The notes under the pieces are model-generated. The model worked only from the letters and a program-made list of their open reading frames with translations. It did not search any database and had not been told where the DNA came from. The position numbers were made by a program, and so were the translations under genes. DNA of 34,315 nt from Halovenus sp. (lineage in GTDB: Archaea; Halobacteriota; Halobacteria; Halobacteriales; Haloarculaceae). Location: NCBI GenBank assembly GCA_003551945.1, contig PUNZ01000200.1, positions 1 through 34,315 of the forward strand, read 5' to 3'. This document shows positions 1,712 through 23,262 of the stretch, one piece after another (position 1 is the first letter of the stretch; each line of letters begins with the position of its first letter).

Positions 1712-3637
1712 TTATTTTCGCGGTGCGAACCGTTCTTCGAGGTCAATCATCCGCTGTGCAAAGTCTTCCGGTGCTTCGTCGTGGTGTTCCCAGATGTTGA
1801 TATCCGCGTTTCGGATATCGTCAACACGTGGGTGCTCGCCGCTTGCCAGCCACGTCCAGTCAGTCATCCCGGGATACATACATGGGACGGTGTAGGTCTC
1901 GATATCGCTCCAGTCATCGGGCCGGTCGTCGACCTCTTCGGCGACGAGCCTGCTTGTAACGCCTTCCATATCGAATCCTTCCCAGTCCGCAGGGAACTCC
2001 GCGTCTTCGCCGAGCGCAAGTTTGTACGGATAGCCGACCCAGTGCCAGCGCTGCGCGCCACCGCCGTGAACTGCCGGTGACCAATCATAGACCTCGCCAA
2101 CCTCGAAGTCGGTTTCACCGAGATAGCCTGCCTCAAGCGGACGGAACATCTCGACATCCCACGTCCCATCTTCATAGGTTGCATCGACTTTCCACAGTCC
2201 GCCTGGCCCCTCGACTTCGTCAGGGAAGTTCATCCGCCGGGGAATAGCTGCACCCTCGAATTCGGCAACATCAGGGTCAAATGGTGCAGTCGTATCCTCG
2301 ACATCCGGAGGCCAGGCATCGTCGTCTCTGTTTTCATCGCGGTGGATAAGCGCGTGGACGTCGGTCTGTGCAACGTTTCCGTCGTAGATTTCATCCAGTT
2401 CGAGCGCACCGTTTTCGACGATATCAGGGTCGAACATGTATTCCGGACGTCCATCTTCATCCAGTCCCTGACTGTCACGGATACGAGTCGATGGTTCGTC
2501 CATCGCACCGTGGCGGTGGTCAAGAATGGTGTGAACCGTTGCATACCCACCGGGTGCACCACGGTGAGCGCGCATCATCGGCATATCAAGATACTCACCG
2601 TTTTCAAGCATTTCGTCGAGTTCATCCTGGTCTTTCACGTCATCCCAGGCGTTCTCCCACCAGTCACCGTTGCGTGACTGTGGAATGTATTTCCGAACGT
2701 CGTCGTTTTCGAGAATATCGCCGTGGTGTGGGTGGTTCTCGACTTCCTCGCCTTCGACCGCACCGGGAAGCGTTCGTGTTCCCTCGTGGATTGTCAGCCA
2801 GCCACCGAATTGTTCGAAACCTTCCACGCTTCCGTCGTCAATCATGAAGGCCACTCTGTCTTCGGTAAATCCGCTGAAGTTATCGCCAACACCGTAGCCT
2901 TCCATTGCTGCGCCAGGATTCGGGTCGCCATATCGCACCCACTCGCCATCTTCGTAGACAAAGAGGTCATGGAACCAGCCGTTCGGAACGTCCCAATCCC
3001 ACTGGAAGCGGAAATAGATATTTTCGTCATCGTATGCGACCTGTGTTGCGAGGTCAATGACCAGCTCTGACGGTGCCCAGTGAGGGGCCATGTGGTCAAG
3101 TTCGGTATAATCTGGCGGTCCAATCGCTCGGGAAACGCTGACACCCTCATCCGGCGTTTCGAGTCGGATATCGTAGCTGTCACCGGGTGCGTCTGAGGTC
3201 TGAGAGACGGCTAGTTCCGTACTCTCGCCGCTGCCAAGCATAAACTCCGTCTCTTCGATAATCTCACCGTTGATGCTTAGTGCAACATCACGGAGCCCGG
3301 TCTCATCCCCGGTATTTTCGATGGTGCCAACGATGTCGTAGTCTTCGTTGATGCCGAGTTCTTCGGGCACGTCAAGGGCAACTTCGAAATACGCACCCTC
3401 ACGGTCGATTTCGCCGTCCTCGGCTTCGCCGACAATACGTTCCTCATCGTCCGGTTCTTCGTCATCGTCGAGGCTGAGACAACCTGCGATGGAAAAGACG
3501 CTGGCCCCAGCCATCGCTTGCAGTAACCGACGGCGGTGTGTTCGAGAGGTTCCCGGCGGAAACACCGGCGTCCCCTTCAATTCGTCTTCGCTGATGTCTG
3601 GGTCAGAATCAGACGGGTCTGATTGGTCGTCTGGCAT
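1712..3637 (-). CDS. Ethylbenzene-dehydrogenase/DMSO-reductase type II heme-b-binding-like protein, Tat lipoprotein
   Basis: 641 aa; TRRRLLQAMAGASVFSIAGC Tat/lipobox; DHMAPHWAPSELVIDLATQVAYDDENIYFRFQWDWD pattern of EB_dh-like heme-binding domains. Confidence 0.7.
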   Translation of the reverse strand: MPDDQSDPSDSDPDISEDELKGTPVFPPGTSRTHRRRLLQAMAGASVFSIAGCLSLDDDEEPDDEERIVGEAEDGEIDREGAYFEVALDVPEELGINEDYDIVGTIENTGDETGLRDVALSINGEIIEETEFMLGSGESTELAVSQTSDAPGDSYDIRLETPDEGVSVSRAIGPPDYTELDHMAPHWAPSELVIDLATQVAYDDENIYFRFQWDWDVPNGWFHDLFVYEDGEWVRYGDPNPGAAMEGYGVGDNFSGFTEDRVAFMIDDGSVEGFEQFGGWLTIHEGTRTLPGAVEGEEVENHPHHGDILENDDVRKYIPQSRNGDWWENAWDDVKDQDELDEMLENGEYLDMPMMRAHRGAPGGYATVHTILDHRHGAMDEPSTRIRDSQGLDEDGRPEYMFDPDIVENGALELDEIYDGNVAQTDVHALIHRDENRDDDAWPPDVEDTTAPFDPDVAEFEGAAIPRRMNFPDEVEGPGGLWKVDATYEDGTWDVEMFRPLEAGYLGETDFEVGEVYDWSPAVHGGGAQRWHWVGYPYKLALGEDAEFPADWEGFDMEGVTSRLVAEEVDDRPDDWSDIETYTVPCMYPGMTDWTWLASGEHPRVDDIRNADINIWEHHDEAPEDFAQRMIDLEERFAPRK

Positions 3638-3793
3638 ATCTAGCGGTTCGGTCCACCACCGCTAAGGGATTAGCCTCAACAATCCAGTCTTTTATAAGGG
3701 GTGAATTCAGCTGTGAGGAAGAGAGTGATGGGAACAGAAAAACGAGAGACAAAGCAAGAGCGACAGCGATCGAAATGCCGCATACAAGCGGTA

Positions 3794-4681
3794 TTATTCT
3801 CGGTCTTCGAACTCGTCGTGGACGTTGGTCCGCATGCTGAAGCTGTCGGTTGGAAAGCCCGTACAGGGGAGGACCCAGCCTTCTTCGACGGCTTCCTCAT
3901 CAAGCGGGTCGTAATCGTTCGCGGTCATCTCGACTAACTCGCTCCCGTCTCCGGAGACCTTTGCCATACATTGGCCACAGGAGCCGACGCGACACGCATA
4001 ATCGATATCAAGGTCTTCTTCTTCACCAGCAACGAGCATGTTTCGGTCCTCGTCAATCAGCGCATCAACGCCACCCTCGAACTCAATAACGGTCGGCTCA
4101 TCGTCGTGGATATAGGTGACGAACGATGTTACATCCTCCTCTTCAACGTCTTCCTCTTCTTCGTCAACTTCCTCGTATTCGGCGAGTTCCTCACCCTGGT
4201 CAAGGTTCGACTGGAAGGAAAAGTTCGCCCGGGGCTGGCTGGTACACGGGAGGAAATACCCATCGCTGACTGCTTCATCGGTCAGGTTACCGACATCGTT
4301 GATTGCCATATGAACAGCTTCGCTCGCATCCGAATCGGCTTTGGCCAGACATTGGCCACAGTAGCCTGCCTTACACGCGTAGTTCAGCTCGAACCCTTCT
4401 TCGAGACCCGCTTCCAGGATGGTTTCACTCCCTCGAAGCCGAAGGGTCGTCCCCTCACGGAGATAGTTCACATCGAACTGGGCATCCCGGCCACGAACCT
4501 GGCTCTCTTGTGGTTCGGCAAGAATGGTGGTACAGCCAGCGAGTGACAAGGCACCTCCTGCGGCGACCGCGCCAAGCAGTCGGCGGCGCTTTGTCTCACA
4601 AAGCGTCTGCTCACACGGCGTGTCGTCGTCACAGGAGTAACTCACCTCCGTCTCTTCGTCCCGTTGCTGTGACTCGTTCAT
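3794..4681 (-). CDS. Tat lipoprotein with two tandem plant-type [2Fe-2S] ferredoxin domains
   Basis: CETKRRRLLGAVAAGGALSLAGC signal; CKAGYCGQC...LPC and CRVGSCGQC...LPC (two Cx4Cx2CxnC motifs). Track ORF begins at 4735; ATG at 4681 (MNESQQRDEE) preferred. Confidence 0.85.
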   Translation of the reverse strand: MNESQQRDEETEVSYSCDDDTPCEQTLCETKRRRLLGAVAAGGALSLAGCTTILAEPQESQVRGRDAQFDVNYLREGTTLRLRGSETILEAGLEEGFELNYACKAGYCGQCLAKADSDASEAVHMAINDVGNLTDEAVSDGYFLPCTSQPRANFSFQSNLDQGEELAEYEEVDEEEEDVEEEDVTSFVTYIHDDEPTVIEFEGGVDALIDEDRNMLVAGEEEDLDIDYACRVGSCGQCMAKVSGDGSELVEMTANDYDPLDEEAVEEGWVLPCTGFPTDSFSMRTNVHDEFEDRE

Positions 4682-4859
4682 GCGAACTAGTCCGTACGGT
4701 GTCTCCCTTAACCCTTTGCCACAGTATGAAGGCATTTATATATAGCAAAAGAAATTTGGCAAATATCTCACGGTAGAGGGTTTCTATCCCGAGAATCTAC
4801 CACTCGAAAAATGAGAACAACCCCCCTCTTTTTAATCCCCGGAGAGAGAACATGCGCGT

Positions 4860-5288
4860 ATGTACCGAGTACTACTGCCGGTCGACGAGAACCCGAAACG
4901 AACGCTCGCACAGGCACAGGCTGTAACGAACTTACCCAACGCCGGCGAGGCAGTGAAAGCGTTCATGCTCTATGTCTTCGTCGACGAGGACAGTCTCGAC
5001 CCGAACGTAGATGAGTCAGTACGCAGCGTCGAGGATATTGAGGCAATCATCCAAGCGAAAAACCATCTCGAAGAACACGGTATCGAGGTCGAACTCTTCG
5101 AAGATAGAAAGGATCCAGTTCAGGCCATCCTCGACCATGAAAGCGCACACGACGCCGACGCCATCGTCATTGGCGGACGAAAGCGCTCACCGGCGGGCAA
5201 AGTACTATTCGGTAGCGTCACCCAGTCGGTGCTGATGAACACTGACACACCAGTCGTCGTGACTGGGGATGCCGGACTCAGCGAGTAG
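4860..5288 (+). CDS. UspA-like universal stress protein
   Basis: 142 aa; MYRVLLPVDE N-terminus, GGRKRSPAGKVLFGSVTQSVLMNTDTPVVV nucleotide-binding motif. Confidence 0.9.
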   Translation: MYRVLLPVDENPKRTLAQAQAVTNLPNAGEAVKAFMLYVFVDEDSLDPNVDESVRSVEDIEAIIQAKNHLEEHGIEVELFEDRKDPVQAILDHESAHDADAIVIGGRKRSPAGKVLFGSVTQSVLMNTDTPVVVTGDAGLSE

Positions 5289-5381
5289 GAACGACACACC
5301 GACAGCCGCAAAAACACCAATATCGGCAGTTTTTCGACGGAAAAAGAAATGACGACAGCGACGCACAGCCGACCAACCCGC

Positions 5382-5594
5382 TCAAAGCGGGAGGTTTGCG
5401 ATGACCCAGAAGGCAACGCCGAGCCCAGCCGTTGCACCGATCATCAGGACGGCAATCACACCCATATAGACGATGCCGATACTTGCTGTTCGGCCATCCC
5501 GTGGCTCAGCAAACAGCCACGAAGCGAGCGTGACATAGACCGGCATCAGCAGGATGAACAGCAAGACGAGCATCCCGATTGGTGGAAGGTTCAT
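5382..5594 (-). CDS. 70-aa two-TM membrane protein, possible small subunit of the NrfD complex
   Basis: Two hydrophobic helices; start overlaps the 3' end of the NrfD ORF by 4 bp. Confidence 0.65.
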   Translation of the reverse strand: MNLPPIGMLVLLFILLMPVYVTLASWLFAEPRDGRTASIGIVYMGVIAVLMIGATAGLGVAFWVIANLPL

Positions 5595-6874
5595 TCGTTG
5601 CTCACCTCCGTTGTCCGCACCGTGGCAAGTGGGATGAACTTAAGCGCGACCACGAACAGGAACAGTGCAATTGCAATCGCACCGAGCGTGATAACCCACT
5701 CGACGATGGTTGGGGTGTACGTTCCCTGAATACCCGGCAGATTCGGGAACAAAAGCGGCTCCATCACCGTCAGATTCGATTTTATCCAGACGCCAAACAG
5801 GATCGAGAATCCGGCAAGCGTCTGTAACCGAACGCCAAGACGATATTTTGCGGCGGCGAGGAAGAACGTTGGCACAGCAACCAACAGTATCGACGCCCAG
5901 AAAAACGGTGCAAGCGAGCCCGTAATCATGGCGTCACCGATGCGCTGTTCGTAGAACGGCGCCATATCGGTAATGACGGTCGTCACGTCGACGAACATAA
6001 CGATCAACCAGACAAACCCGAAGGCGGCCATCATCTGGCCGAGGCCGCGCATCACTGGGTTCGACAGTTTATCTCGCCAGCTGTAACGCATGCGGAGGAT
6101 ACCAGCGGTCACTGACAGCAACGCGATACCGGTGAGCATCCCACTGACAAGGAAGATGATACCGCTTTCTGCGCCGAAGTATCCCGGCTGTCCGCCGACA
6201 ACGCCAAGCAGCAGTCCCGGAACGAGGCCAGCAGTCAGGGCGAGCACGATGAGTCCAAGCCCAAGCCACTGCCGCATGGATTCGAGTTTCGGAATCTCCT
6301 CTTCGGTTGCCCCAATGCTCACAAGCCGTTTGACGATGCTTGTGTGCAGCGGTAGGTCGTTATCCATCCGCAGGAAATCAAGCCGCAGCGAGAGCACAAG
6401 CATCGTGAGCGTAAACACCATCAGCGTGGTGACAAACGTCACATCCCATGCAAGCGGCGAGTGAAGCACCGTCTCGTGCCAGTTCGTCAGAATGACCAGC
6501 ACACGGTGTGGTGTCCCAAGGTCGATGATAATCAACCAGGCTGCAGAGAGGCCACAGATGAACGCCCAGATGTTGCCGATGCGGGCAATCATGTCGTACT
6601 GGTCAAGCTGGTTAAACCGGATATAGCCGGTAATTGCAAGCGTCCCGACGGCCATTCCGGCAAACCACTCGAATGTTCCAATGTACAGTCCCCAGGTCGC
6701 TCCGCCCTGTGTTCCTTGCTGGGCAAGGTCAGTCATGACGAGGCCACGTTGGACCTGATGGATGATGGCTTCGAGCGTGAAGAGAACTCCCACGAAGAGG
6801 ACACCGATAAGCAGCAGGTATCCTTTCGAGATGCCCCGCAAATGGTCAAGCGAGTAGTCAGTTCTAGCTGTCAT
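5591..6874 (-). CDS. NrfD/PsrC-family polytopic membrane subunit
   Basis: About 427 aa, multiple TM helices, directly downstream of and overlapping a 4Fe-4S PsrB-like gene. Track start 6901; MTARTDYSLDHLRG start at 6874 also possible. Confidence 0.8.
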   Translation of the reverse strand: MTARTDYSLDHLRGISKGYLLLIGVLFVGVLFTLEAIIHQVQRGLVMTDLAQQGTQGGATWGLYIGTFEWFAGMAVGTLAITGYIRFNQLDQYDMIARIGNIWAFICGLSAAWLIIIDLGTPHRVLVILTNWHETVLHSPLAWDVTFVTTLMVFTLTMLVLSLRLDFLRMDNDLPLHTSIVKRLVSIGATEEEIPKLESMRQWLGLGLIVLALTAGLVPGLLLGVVGGQPGYFGAESGIIFLVSGMLTGIALLSVTAGILRMRYSWRDKLSNPVMRGLGQMMAAFGFVWLIVMFVDVTTVITDMAPFYEQRIGDAMITGSLAPFFWASILLVAVPTFFLAAAKYRLGVRLQTLAGFSILFGVWIKSNLTVMEPLLFPNLPGIQGTYTPTIVEWVITLGAIAIALFLFVVALKFIPLATVRTTEVSNE

Positions 6875-8225
6875 CCTCATCACCTCGTTCTGGGTAGTCA
6901 ACCGGTCCTCGTCCGGTTCGAGACCGCGTCAAGTCGCGGTGCATATCTTCGACCGTCCGTGGCCCCTCGACCGGTGTTGCATCCGGTGACGGCTCACTGC
7001 CAACGTAGATGACGTTCGGTTCCGTGCCGCGGTCTTCGAGCAACCGGTAGGTCGACTCGTCGTCATCAAGGTCAGCAATGTGCTGTCGTGGCGCACTCTC
7101 TTCGTCTTCGAGGTCGCCGAAGTGAATTGCATCGACCGGACAGACCTGTTCACAGGCTGTTGTCCCCTGCAGGGCTTCGCTTTCGGAGTCCTGGCGGTGC
7201 ACACAGAACGTACACTTGCCCATGACTCCTTTCGGTGGGTTACCGCCGCCGTGTGTGCCATCAGCAGTTTGCCGTGGGTCGTCGATGGTCTCCGTGATGC
7301 TTTCGTTCAGGTCACCAGCCGTAATGTTCTCCTCTTCGTCGATGGTGATGTTCTCATCGAGGTCACCGGGTGCGAGTTCAATTGCCCCGTCGGATTCGTG
7401 CATCTCGGTGAACTCCTCGGGGTCGTGGGGCTCGTCCCACTGGAGATAATTAACCCCGTACGGGCAGGCGACCTCACAGTAGCGACAGCCGATACAGGAG
7501 TCATAGTCGGTGAGGACAATCCCATCCTCATCGCGCTGGAACCGTGCCGTCGTCGGACAGGCCGCTTCACACGGCGCGTCCGAACAGTGCTGGCACGGTC
7601 GTGGGAGATACTCTTCGGTATCTCGGTAATCCTCCTGAACGTACCGATGGACGAACATCCAGAGTGCGTCAGGAGTGTTGTTATTCTCAACGTTACAGGC
7701 TTCAACACACTGGAGACAGGCGATACATGAGTTCATGTTTATCGCCATCCCCATCTGGGTGTCAGGCTCGTCACCGCTGCCTGAAACCCCCGTAGTCATG
7801 CCTTCAACGCCGGCGATACCGACGGCCGCAGCACCGAGTACTCCGGCTGTTTTCAACACTGAGCGACGTGATGGGTCCTCACCGGGAACACCAGGAAGGT
7901 TCGATGGGTCTTCGCCGCCGCCCCCTCCGGTGTCACCGTCCCATGGGCCCGTGTCGTCAGCGGATGTGTCAACACCGGGGACAGCTGGGCTCGTGTCCGC
8001 GGTGTACGTCTCGAGACGCTGGTCGACACCAAACTCGTCAAGCACCTGCTCGTGATACCGCTCGTGGAACTCCGCCTCGGATATCTCACCCCGGGCAAGC
8101 CGTTGAGCATCACGACCCAGGTCCTTTCCCAACTGGGTATCGTAATCGACCGCGCCAAGTCGACGTTCAGCGTCCGCTTCCCACGCCTCGTCGAACTCAG
8201 ACGCTGTCGATGGGTCTGATTGCAT
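6864..8225 (-). CDS. 4Fe-4S ferredoxin-type (PsrB/DmsB-like) electron-transfer protein with internal Tat-like signal
   Basis: 453 aa; CIACLQCVEACNVE, CQHCSDAPCEAACP, CIGCRYCEVACP, CTFCVHRQ...CEQVCP clusters; SRRSVLKTAGVLGAAAVGIAG after about 119 residues. Confidence 0.85.
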   Translation of the reverse strand: MQSDPSTASEFDEAWEADAERRLGAVDYDTQLGKDLGRDAQRLARGEISEAEFHERYHEQVLDEFGVDQRLETYTADTSPAVPGVDTSADDTGPWDGDTGGGGGEDPSNLPGVPGEDPSRRSVLKTAGVLGAAAVGIAGVEGMTTGVSGSGDEPDTQMGMAINMNSCIACLQCVEACNVENNNTPDALWMFVHRYVQEDYRDTEEYLPRPCQHCSDAPCEAACPTTARFQRDEDGIVLTDYDSCIGCRYCEVACPYGVNYLQWDEPHDPEEFTEMHESDGAIELAPGDLDENITIDEEENITAGDLNESITETIDDPRQTADGTHGGGNPPKGVMGKCTFCVHRQDSESEALQGTTACEQVCPVDAIHFGDLEDEESAPRQHIADLDDDESTYRLLEDRGTEPNVIYVGSEPSPDATPVEGPRTVEDMHRDLTRSRTGRGPVDYPERGDEDDS

Positions 8226-8873: not shown

Positions 8874-9536
8874 TCAGTCAGCAAGAAACGCCTGTACAAG
8901 CTTCGTCTCTGCGGCGTTGAGTCGTTGTGACGCAGCAGATTCTGAAATATCGAGTTCAGTAGCGATGGTTCCAAGGTCGGCCCCCCGAGGTTTTTCATAG
9001 TAACCCAAGGAAGCAGCAAGTTCCAGTGCCTCTTGTTGTTTGTCCGTGATTGTCCCCGTTTCAATCTCGGTTATGTGGGTGGTAGTCTCACCTTGTACCA
9101 ATCGCTCGACAGAAACGGTGGCCTCAACGGCGTTGAGTTCGCTGACGATTGACCGAAGTTCATCTCGGGATTGAACGGTGACGGTCATGACCACCGAATC
9201 ACCGCTAACCGCGTTGATTTCGGTGATACAGTCGTGGTGTTCGAACACCGGACAGATACAACGTGCGGTCACCGAGGATTTGATGTATCGTTGCTCCGCT
9301 TCTGAATCGGAGCCAAACGTGACCTGTGCATGGCACTCACCGGAGGTGGAGCGACAGTCGTCCTCTTCGCATCCGTTCGTTCGCTGGGATTTGAGATTCC
9401 GTGTGAGGTTCGTGATGGGTTGGTTCGTACGAATAACTGGACAGCCGGAGCCGACGTGTGGCGTGATGGACAATCGCGCCTTGAGTGGACCCACCGTGGA
9501 GCCAGTATCGCTGGGGGAGTGTGCTGACTGCGACAT
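8874..9536 (-). CDS. HTH_10 (Bat/DmsR-like) regulator with Cys-rich N-terminal half
   Basis: 220 aa; GCEEDDCRSTSGEC and CICPVFEHHDC; C-terminal LAASLGYYEKPRGADLGTIATELDISESAASQRLNAAE. Confidence 0.85.
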   Translation of the reverse strand: MSQSAHSPSDTGSTVGPLKARLSITPHVGSGCPVIRTNQPITNLTRNLKSQRTNGCEEDDCRSTSGECHAQVTFGSDSEAEQRYIKSSVTARCICPVFEHHDCITEINAVSGDSVVMTVTVQSRDELRSIVSELNAVEATVSVERLVQGETTTHITEIETGTITDKQQEALELAASLGYYEKPRGADLGTIATELDISESAASQRLNAAETKLVQAFLAD

Positions 9537-22923: not shown

Positions 22924-22985
22924 GACCAAACTCCACGGTTCAAACCCGCGTGGCTTTCGCTGCTCACTATGGTTCGCAGCAAAAA
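22924..22985. repeat. Partial copy of tRNA-Cys-associated repeat (right half)
   Basis: ggttcaaacccgcgtggctttcgctgctcact resembles unit 2 right half ggttcaaaccggcgtacctttcgctcctcact. Confidence 0.6.
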
Positions 22986-23085
22986 GCCAGGGGCCGCATA
23001 TTGAACCACCAGAACTTCGTTCCCTCGTTCTGTCATTCAAATCCGGCCTATCGGCTTTTCGTCCTCGTTATACTCAGACAGAAAA
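22986..23085 (-). repeat. tRNA-Cys 3'-end-derived repeat, unit 1
   Basis: Begins gccaggggccgcatattgaacc; hairpin CAGAAC-11 nt-GTTCTG; GGCCG/CCGGCC outer arms. Confidence 0.8.
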
Positions 23086-23185
23086 GCCAGGGGCCGCATA
23101 TTGAACCAGAGGAAGACTCACTGCGTTCGTCTTCCAGGGTTCAAACCGGCGTACCTTTCGCTCCTCACTTTTGTTCGTCGCAGAA
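23086..23185 (-). repeat. tRNA-Cys 3'-end-derived repeat, unit 2
   Basis: Begins with the identical gccaggggccgcatattgaacca; hairpin GGAAGAC-11 nt-GTCTTCC flanked by TTGAACC/GGTTCAA. Confidence 0.8.
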
Positions 23186-23262
23186 AGCCAGGGGCCGGAT
23201 TTGAACCGGCGGGGGTTCCGCTCTGCAGGCGGATGCGTTGGGCCGGACTCTGCCACCCTGGC
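23186..23262 (-). tRNA. tRNA-Cys (GCA)
   Basis: Reverse strand GCCAGGG...CCGC-CTGCAGA-GCGG...GCCGGTTCAAATCCGGC-CCCTGGC-T; anticodon GCA, U73 discriminator. Confidence 0.93.

Follow-up and report, generated by a model that had tools for sequence, protein, structure and literature searches.

Short structured units behind tRNA genes of Halobacteria: candidate cassette-like elements at tRNA 3' ends

The window analyzed here is a stretch of 34,315 nucleotides from a Halovenus sp. contig (PUNZ01000200.1). A tRNA-Cys gene (anticodon gca) is located on its minus strand at 23186..23262 (ARAGORN; Rfam RF00005, 49.1 bits) and is the anchor of an array that extends downstream of it on the same strand over 262 nt and comprises, all on the minus strand, a 101-bp and a 100-bp unit, both complete, and another unit that is truncated. 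In the sense of the tRNA, a unit consists of two hairpins (1 and 2) separated by A*, an inverted copy of the T loop, and followed by T', a copy of tRNA nucleotides 53-73; the copied segment itself (GTTCAAATCCGGCCCCTGGCT) lies at 23186..23206, as delimited from the sequence and from the borders of 183 copies in many genomes. The body of unit 1 (23107..23185), defined by the fold and by a match to the covariance model R1 (23153-23093 minus, E = 1.6 × 10−4), comprises hairpin 1 (23185-23154), A* (GCCGGTTTGAAC, 23150-23139) and hairpin 2 (GGAAGAC[GAACGCAGTGA]GTCTTCC, 23135-23111), each taken from the fold, and is followed by T' copy 1 (23085..23106), recovered from the sequence and by repeat search, in which the T loop is one base longer (GTTCAATATGCGGCCCCTGGCT). 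The body of unit 2 (23007..23084) shows, also in the fold, hairpin 1 (23084 to about 23053), A* (GGCCGGATTTGAAT, 23048-23035) and hairpin 2 (CAGAAC[GAGGGAACGAA]GTTCTG, 23032-23010); T' copy 2 (22985..23006; sequence and repeat search) is identical to copy 1. Because unit 2 matches R1 weakly (E = 0.33), the tRNA-Cys array of the window is a degenerate form of its family. Unit 3 (22937..22984) is truncated to hairpin 1 (GCTGC[GAACCATAGTGA]GCAGC) and A* (GCGGGTTTGAACC) and lacks both hairpin 2 and the copy; it repeats unit 1 directly with 84% identity at a distance of 201 bp, and matches the first half-unit of the relative G012. Elsewhere in the window (1715-8225), family matches to ethylbenzene dehydrogenase, 2Fe-2S ferredoxin, NrfD and 4Fe-4S proteins are clustered, with an adjoining HTH_10/DmsR_N regulator (8877-9536); by its family matches, this gene group looks like a molybdenum oxidoreductase cluster.

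The original prediction had placed the motif gccagggg at 22986, 23086 and 23187, with spacings of 100 and 101 bp, and these positions were reproduced. The recurrence of the tRNA-Cys end is real, but the copy extends over 21-22 nt (tRNA nucleotides 53-73) rather than 8 nt. A repeat search recovered a 27-nt family at 22982, 23082 and 23183, with the same spacings of 100 and 101 and with 100% identity between the two extra copies throughout the 27 nt; both T' copies differ from the tRNA-Cys by the same two changes, the additional T-loop base and one substitution (GTTCAATATGCGGCCCCTGGCT vs GTTCAAATCCGGCCCCTGGCT). The hairpins, arms and coordinates described previously were read on the strand opposite to the tRNA; all are seen when the minus strand is folded as RNA, where a UUGAACC/GGUUCAA arm, GCCG/CGGC and variable inner stems are present. 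When both strands of the array were folded as RNA, z was −5.9 for the minus strand and −3.4 for the plus strand, neither value being equalled by any shuffle; folded as DNA, both strands were better than shuffles (z = −4.9 and −5.1). Given these fold scores and the presence of the same architecture behind most other tRNA genes of the genome, the array is not a product of chance.

Within the same genome, this architecture lies behind most tRNA genes, including those for Thr, Met, Leu, Gly, Ala, Lys, Tyr, Ser, Asp, His, Val, Phe, Asn and Gln, and almost always includes a copy of the gene's own 3' end. Among the 218 tRNA genes (RF00005 hits) read in five genomes, 97 have at least one copy (at least 80% of the 21 nt) no more than 600 nt downstream, compared to 3/218 upstream and 8/218 behind another tRNA in the controls. 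The copy occurs patchily across tRNA types, with all five genomes having it at Gly-TCC, Asp, Phe and Met, and 148 of the 355 tRNA loci examined are without any unit. Unit length is mostly about 69-182 bp. The covariance model R1, built from 17 units of the window genome, finds the class-A form (core AGUCGC...CGUCU, with a helix containing a U.U mismatch) in 293/300 Halobacteria genomes and 74/78 genera. Set against the outcome that would have counted against the original prediction, namely no covariation and a single strain, the unit is widespread and covaries strongly. In a phylum-wide sample of 249 genomes, R1 matches 43 of the 45 genomes listed for the same order and none outside it. The same core recurs behind different tRNAs, and neighbouring units often differ except in the 53-73 copy. 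Mean similarity of hairpin 2 was.11 within a genome,.083 between genomes and.149 for the same tRNA in other genomes; free hopping between tRNAs was judged from these values and set aside, the signal being weak.

The consensus unit had no match in 50,697 phage records and was found in three plasmid records, behind a tRNA-Val, behind an odd tRNA-Glu-like gene, and inside a tRNA-Cys. The last case (L372:2430-2571, Haloarcula halophila plasmid NZ_CP119561.1) has the unit at about position 53/54 of the tRNA, whose own nucleotides 53-73 come only after the unit; the gene lies with 22 other tRNA genes in a cluster upstream of a TROVE-domain gene, and is either a broken tRNA or one that requires removal of the unit. 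A tRNA intron spliced at a bulge-helix-bulge, suggested by the possible replacement of T by T' and by this locus, was rejected as a general model, many T' copies having an extra T-loop base. Several other arrangements were noted. A second kind of unit, whose hairpin tip motif is on the opposite strand, lies at four Gly-TCC loci (L076, L078, L082 and L084) between copies of the tRNA end only (about 61-73). At G022:C1:2635124-2637763 (L202), roughly a dozen tRNA genes or more are packed into 2.6 kb, resembling a provirus-borne tRNA cluster, and L105:1136-1311 contains two complete tRNA-Asp genes in tandem, with an array behind the second.

The borders of the copy were determined from 183 copies, located via nucleotides 53-62 and the upstream A*, so that identity at 53-62 is high by selection. 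The copies are 97-99% identical to the tRNA between G53 and 63 and 82-93% identical at 64-73; identity falls to 50% at 74 and then declines to background, and on the upstream side it is 81% at 52 and 34% at 51. The copy spans the start of the T loop (G53) to the mature 3' end at discriminator base 73, which is the segment that an element must carry to restore the tRNA after a crossover in the T loop. A snap-back duplication of the tRNA end was discarded as the source of A*, which matches only about 9-11 nt and not the whole segment. A first comparison of A* with T' and with the tRNA was biased by the way A* was located; when the question of which of the two A* follows was examined again, T' proved nearly invariant and most "compensated" changes came from mis-aligned type II units.

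The original prediction that selection acts on structure is supported by strong covariation across 132 distinct class-A units, in which 94% of the cells pair and 220 cells have changed on both sides. Covariation was 0.296 vs. 0.115 in shuffled alignments (0/500) for these units, in an alignment fitted to, and biased towards, the model, and 0.365 vs. 0.190 in an unfitted alignment of 17 sequences. Helix 2 alone accounts for 152 double changes with 98% pairing; the covariation of helix 1 is partly trivial, both of its sides following the local tRNA. Changes on the A* side yield G.U in 51 cases and A.C in 16, suggesting that it is the tRNA-sense strand that pairs, either as RNA or as single-stranded DNA. 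The tip of the form stem-GA-R-C-NNN-G-Y-GA-stem was found 65 times in sense and 6 times in antisense orientation; among the 65 tips, the R-Y pair is G-C in 35 and A-T in 28, and 53/65 have GNA loops. Since GNA and GNNA loops form very stable mini-hairpins in DNA (PMC4686876), the tips tilt the balance, by analogy, towards a DNA rather than an RNA reading. A kink-turn or L7Ae site (GAAC..GUGA) was considered and lost ground: in the 65 tips, the inner R-Y and C-G positions form covarying pairs, so that the tandem G.A is symmetric and capped by a loop of 3 nt, in place of the asymmetric 3-nt bulge next to tandem G.A that marks a kink-turn; in about 30 tips with longer loops, a K-loop could still form. 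Hairpins with the same tip (GAGCGAAGCGAG, GAACGAAGTGAG) were also seen, with no link to a tRNA, in a short insert near or inside a Fic-like reading frame (L011; G000:C81, near 4043-4055), and are perhaps another small mobile repeat.

To follow turnover, we compared 41 orthologous tRNA loci of two close species (G089 and G122), of which 7 were clean, 14 colinear, 8 unclear and 12 without a common flank. At each of the 7 clean loci, an additional 98-266 bp immediately follow the tRNA in one of the genomes, at the 53/73 borders and with flanks 81-96% identical, and the tRNA 3' end and flank of the other genome align to the copy and flank beyond the extra unit. For example, between G089 and G122, positions 1-805 correspond to 119-921 at Arg-CCT (86%), 1-804 to 112-921 at Cys (95%), 120-921 to 1-802 at Glu-TTC (95%) and 267-920 to 1-655 at Phe (96%). 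The extra units are proximal to the tRNA in 7/7 clean cases, the comparison being unrooted. The first and second units are swapped between the two genomes at Val-CAC (140-338 corresponds to 1-199 at 96%, and 1-162 to 122-283 at 94%) and at Ser-CGA, and Ser-TGA and Leu-TAA show the swap pattern over shorter or weaker stretches. When the first and last copies were compared within arrays of at least two, the first was the closer one to the tRNA in 35 arrays and the further one in 13 (p = 0.002). Gain or loss at tRNA-Cys has occurred within the window's own genus as well: the nearest relative (90% identical) retains the tRNA and a first half-unit, which matches the first unit of the window (94%) and the truncated third (84%), and is without complete units, and of the other congeners, one has one perfect unit, a third has a remnant, and most others read at this locus are without any.

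Taken together with the unit anatomy, the class-wide association with tRNA genes and the covariation, these whole-unit differences make it somewhat probable that the units are short, structured, gene-less, cassette-like elements whose insertion at the 3' end of a tRNA gene does not disrupt the tRNA. Of the three options put forward by the original prediction, the one that fares best is a repeat element, or relics of successive integrations at the tRNA 3' end, which fits the borders of the tRNA copies and the precise gain or loss of whole units, with the amendment that the family is class-wide and is still turning over. Insertion of a cassette would keep the tRNA intact and leave a 53-73 copy on the far side, by which further units could be added, mostly adjoining the tRNA. 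The presence or absence of units would then reflect insertion, the direction in time being conjectural, and movement would be due to a site-specific recombinase, which could be an integron-like enzyme that uses the sense strand in its folded form or an integrase of the T-loop type acting in trans. No recombinase was linked to the units or identified, and no integrase, for which the original prediction had suggested looking in linkage to the att-like sequence, was found among the 20 proteins of the window. The units would probably also be transcribed, as a 3' trailer of the tRNA. That haloarchaea run an undescribed, class-wide cassette system, in which minimal folded single-strand sites are excised and re-inserted at tRNA 3' ends in an integron-like manner with the tRNA as the anchor, is a more tentative proposal, for which we see a distinct possibility rather than a likelihood.

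Besides the lack of a linked recombinase, several considerations weigh against cassettes. The presence/absence comparison is unrooted, so that single cases could be due to loss by recombination between copies. The two T' copies of the window carry the same change, so the last duplication there used a T' and not the tRNA itself. Of the loci compared between G089 and G122, the 8 unclear ones and the 12 without a common flank also count on this side. Finally, A* fits the local tRNA, and a freely moving cassette needs either adaptation or movement within one tRNA type.

The main rival, which we consider unlikely as a full account, holds that the units are a structured non-coding RNA family of tRNA 3' trailers, whose hairpins bind a protein or steer folding or 3' processing of the tRNA; A* would be antisense to the T loop and T' its partner or decoy, with structure kept by selection on the RNA and turnover a by-product. 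The constant location of the units downstream of the tRNA on the same strand, the sense-strand bias of pairing along with the strong covariation, the better RNA fold of the sense strand (z = −5.9 vs. −3.4) and the tandem G.A tips, which could suit an RNA-binding protein, all speak for such a role. However, close species differ by whole units at one and the same tRNA and 148/355 loci have none, and therefore no unit is needed by its tRNA; furthermore, the GNA loops match those of stable mini-hairpins formed by DNA (PMC4686876), and searches of Rfam gave no family other than the RF00005 tRNA, either at the gathering threshold or with E up to 1. C/D and H/ACA guide RNAs were set aside as well (no boxes by eye, no Rfam match). 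A processed trailer RNA is not reported in the Haloquadratum and H. volcanii papers that were searched by term. The cassette and RNA readings can both hold, the RNA role fitting all of the structural data.

Ordinary integration of viruses or plasmids, with the copies being tRNA ends displaced by larger elements that later decayed or were deleted, is improbable: decay would not account for one and the same covarying core across 293 genomes, and the consensus unit is absent from the phage records. The copy borders do coincide with those of T-loop integration (Islander, PMC4383910), and four strong orphan R1 hits without a full tRNA lie behind a 3' part (L046, L087, L089 and L097), one of them (L097) downstream of what, by eye, is a tyrosine-recombinase-like reading frame; but in these attR-like arrays, again by eye, the larger element appears to have cut further upstream, in the anticodon arm, and to have carried the array as a passenger. 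We give similarly little credence to tandem duplication and homologous recombination between copies in polyploid cells with no dedicated mobility, which agrees with the near-identity of some neighbouring units (e.g. in the Met array of G089), the identical T' copies of the window and the reported deletion of DNA between short direct repeats in Haloquadratum (PMC3119063), but would not stop at nucleotide 73 and is at odds with neighbouring units that differ in all but the 53-73 copy and with the same core behind different tRNAs; such recombination could fit losses and some reshuffling, not easily different units with the same core and exact borders.

Among known systems, the cassette reading comes close to tDNA islands of tyrosine integrases, which share with the units an intact tRNA, a displaced 3' fragment in the same orientation that reaches the tRNA end, tandem arrangement and T-loop borders (PMC4383910); the units differ in size (~100 bp vs. 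>2 kb), in the lack of an integrase or any gene, and in their conserved folded body. Islander uses displaced 3' tRNA fragments as the marks of such islands and discards candidates below 2 kb or without an integrase (PMC4383910). Casposons, and Cas1 with CRISPR arrays, resemble the units in the short target duplication at a tRNA 3' end and the polarised repeat-unit-repeat order (PMC6977970), whereas the casposase duplication is 14-15 bp vs. 21 here and the units are a structured family rather than random spacers or a Cas1-coding element. Integrons have been reported in archaea (PMC9668308), in a paper in which the term Halobacter- does not occur. Integrons and CALINs (cassette arrays without an integrase) have in common with the present arrays modularity and folded single-strand sites, the units folding on one strand as a paired, imperfect palindrome as integron sites do, and may also share insertion beside a fixed anchor and reordering, in view of the tRNA-proximal extra units and the swaps at Val-CAC and Ser-CGA in the unrooted comparison; here, however, the anchor is a tRNA gene, the units have no reading frame and no IntI was seen in the window. 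The rtT repeats of E. coli tyrT (Rfam RF00391) are reportedly confined to one locus, with tandem units of about 178 bp behind the tRNA, each with a tRNA 3' end. They are similar in being tandem repeats behind a tRNA that hold its 3' end, but differ in sequence from the present units, which are ~100 bp long and occur at many loci; RF00391 had no match at the gathering threshold or with E up to 1. SMR-A of Haloquadratum are about 110 bp long and gene-less, insert into palindromes by a movement called enigmatic, target IS605-type elements and PATEs, and have inverted terminal repeats and no target duplication (PMC3119063), in contrast, by this published description, to the 21-nt copy that flanks each unit here. 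No description matching the tRNA-end units was found in the open-access literature, and their novelty is provisional.

If the cassette reading is true, a very common, class-wide feature of haloarchaea, occurring downstream of nearly half the tRNA genes of five genomes, would have been overlooked, because Rfam does not contain it and its small size and lack of genes hide it from island finders. The units would be among the smallest integrative elements known, and would provide a natural, tRNA-anchored cassette array in which recombination on folded DNA can be studied, while the rapid turnover beside tRNA genes would be explained. If, instead, the RNA reading is true, the units would constitute a large new family of tRNA trailer RNAs.
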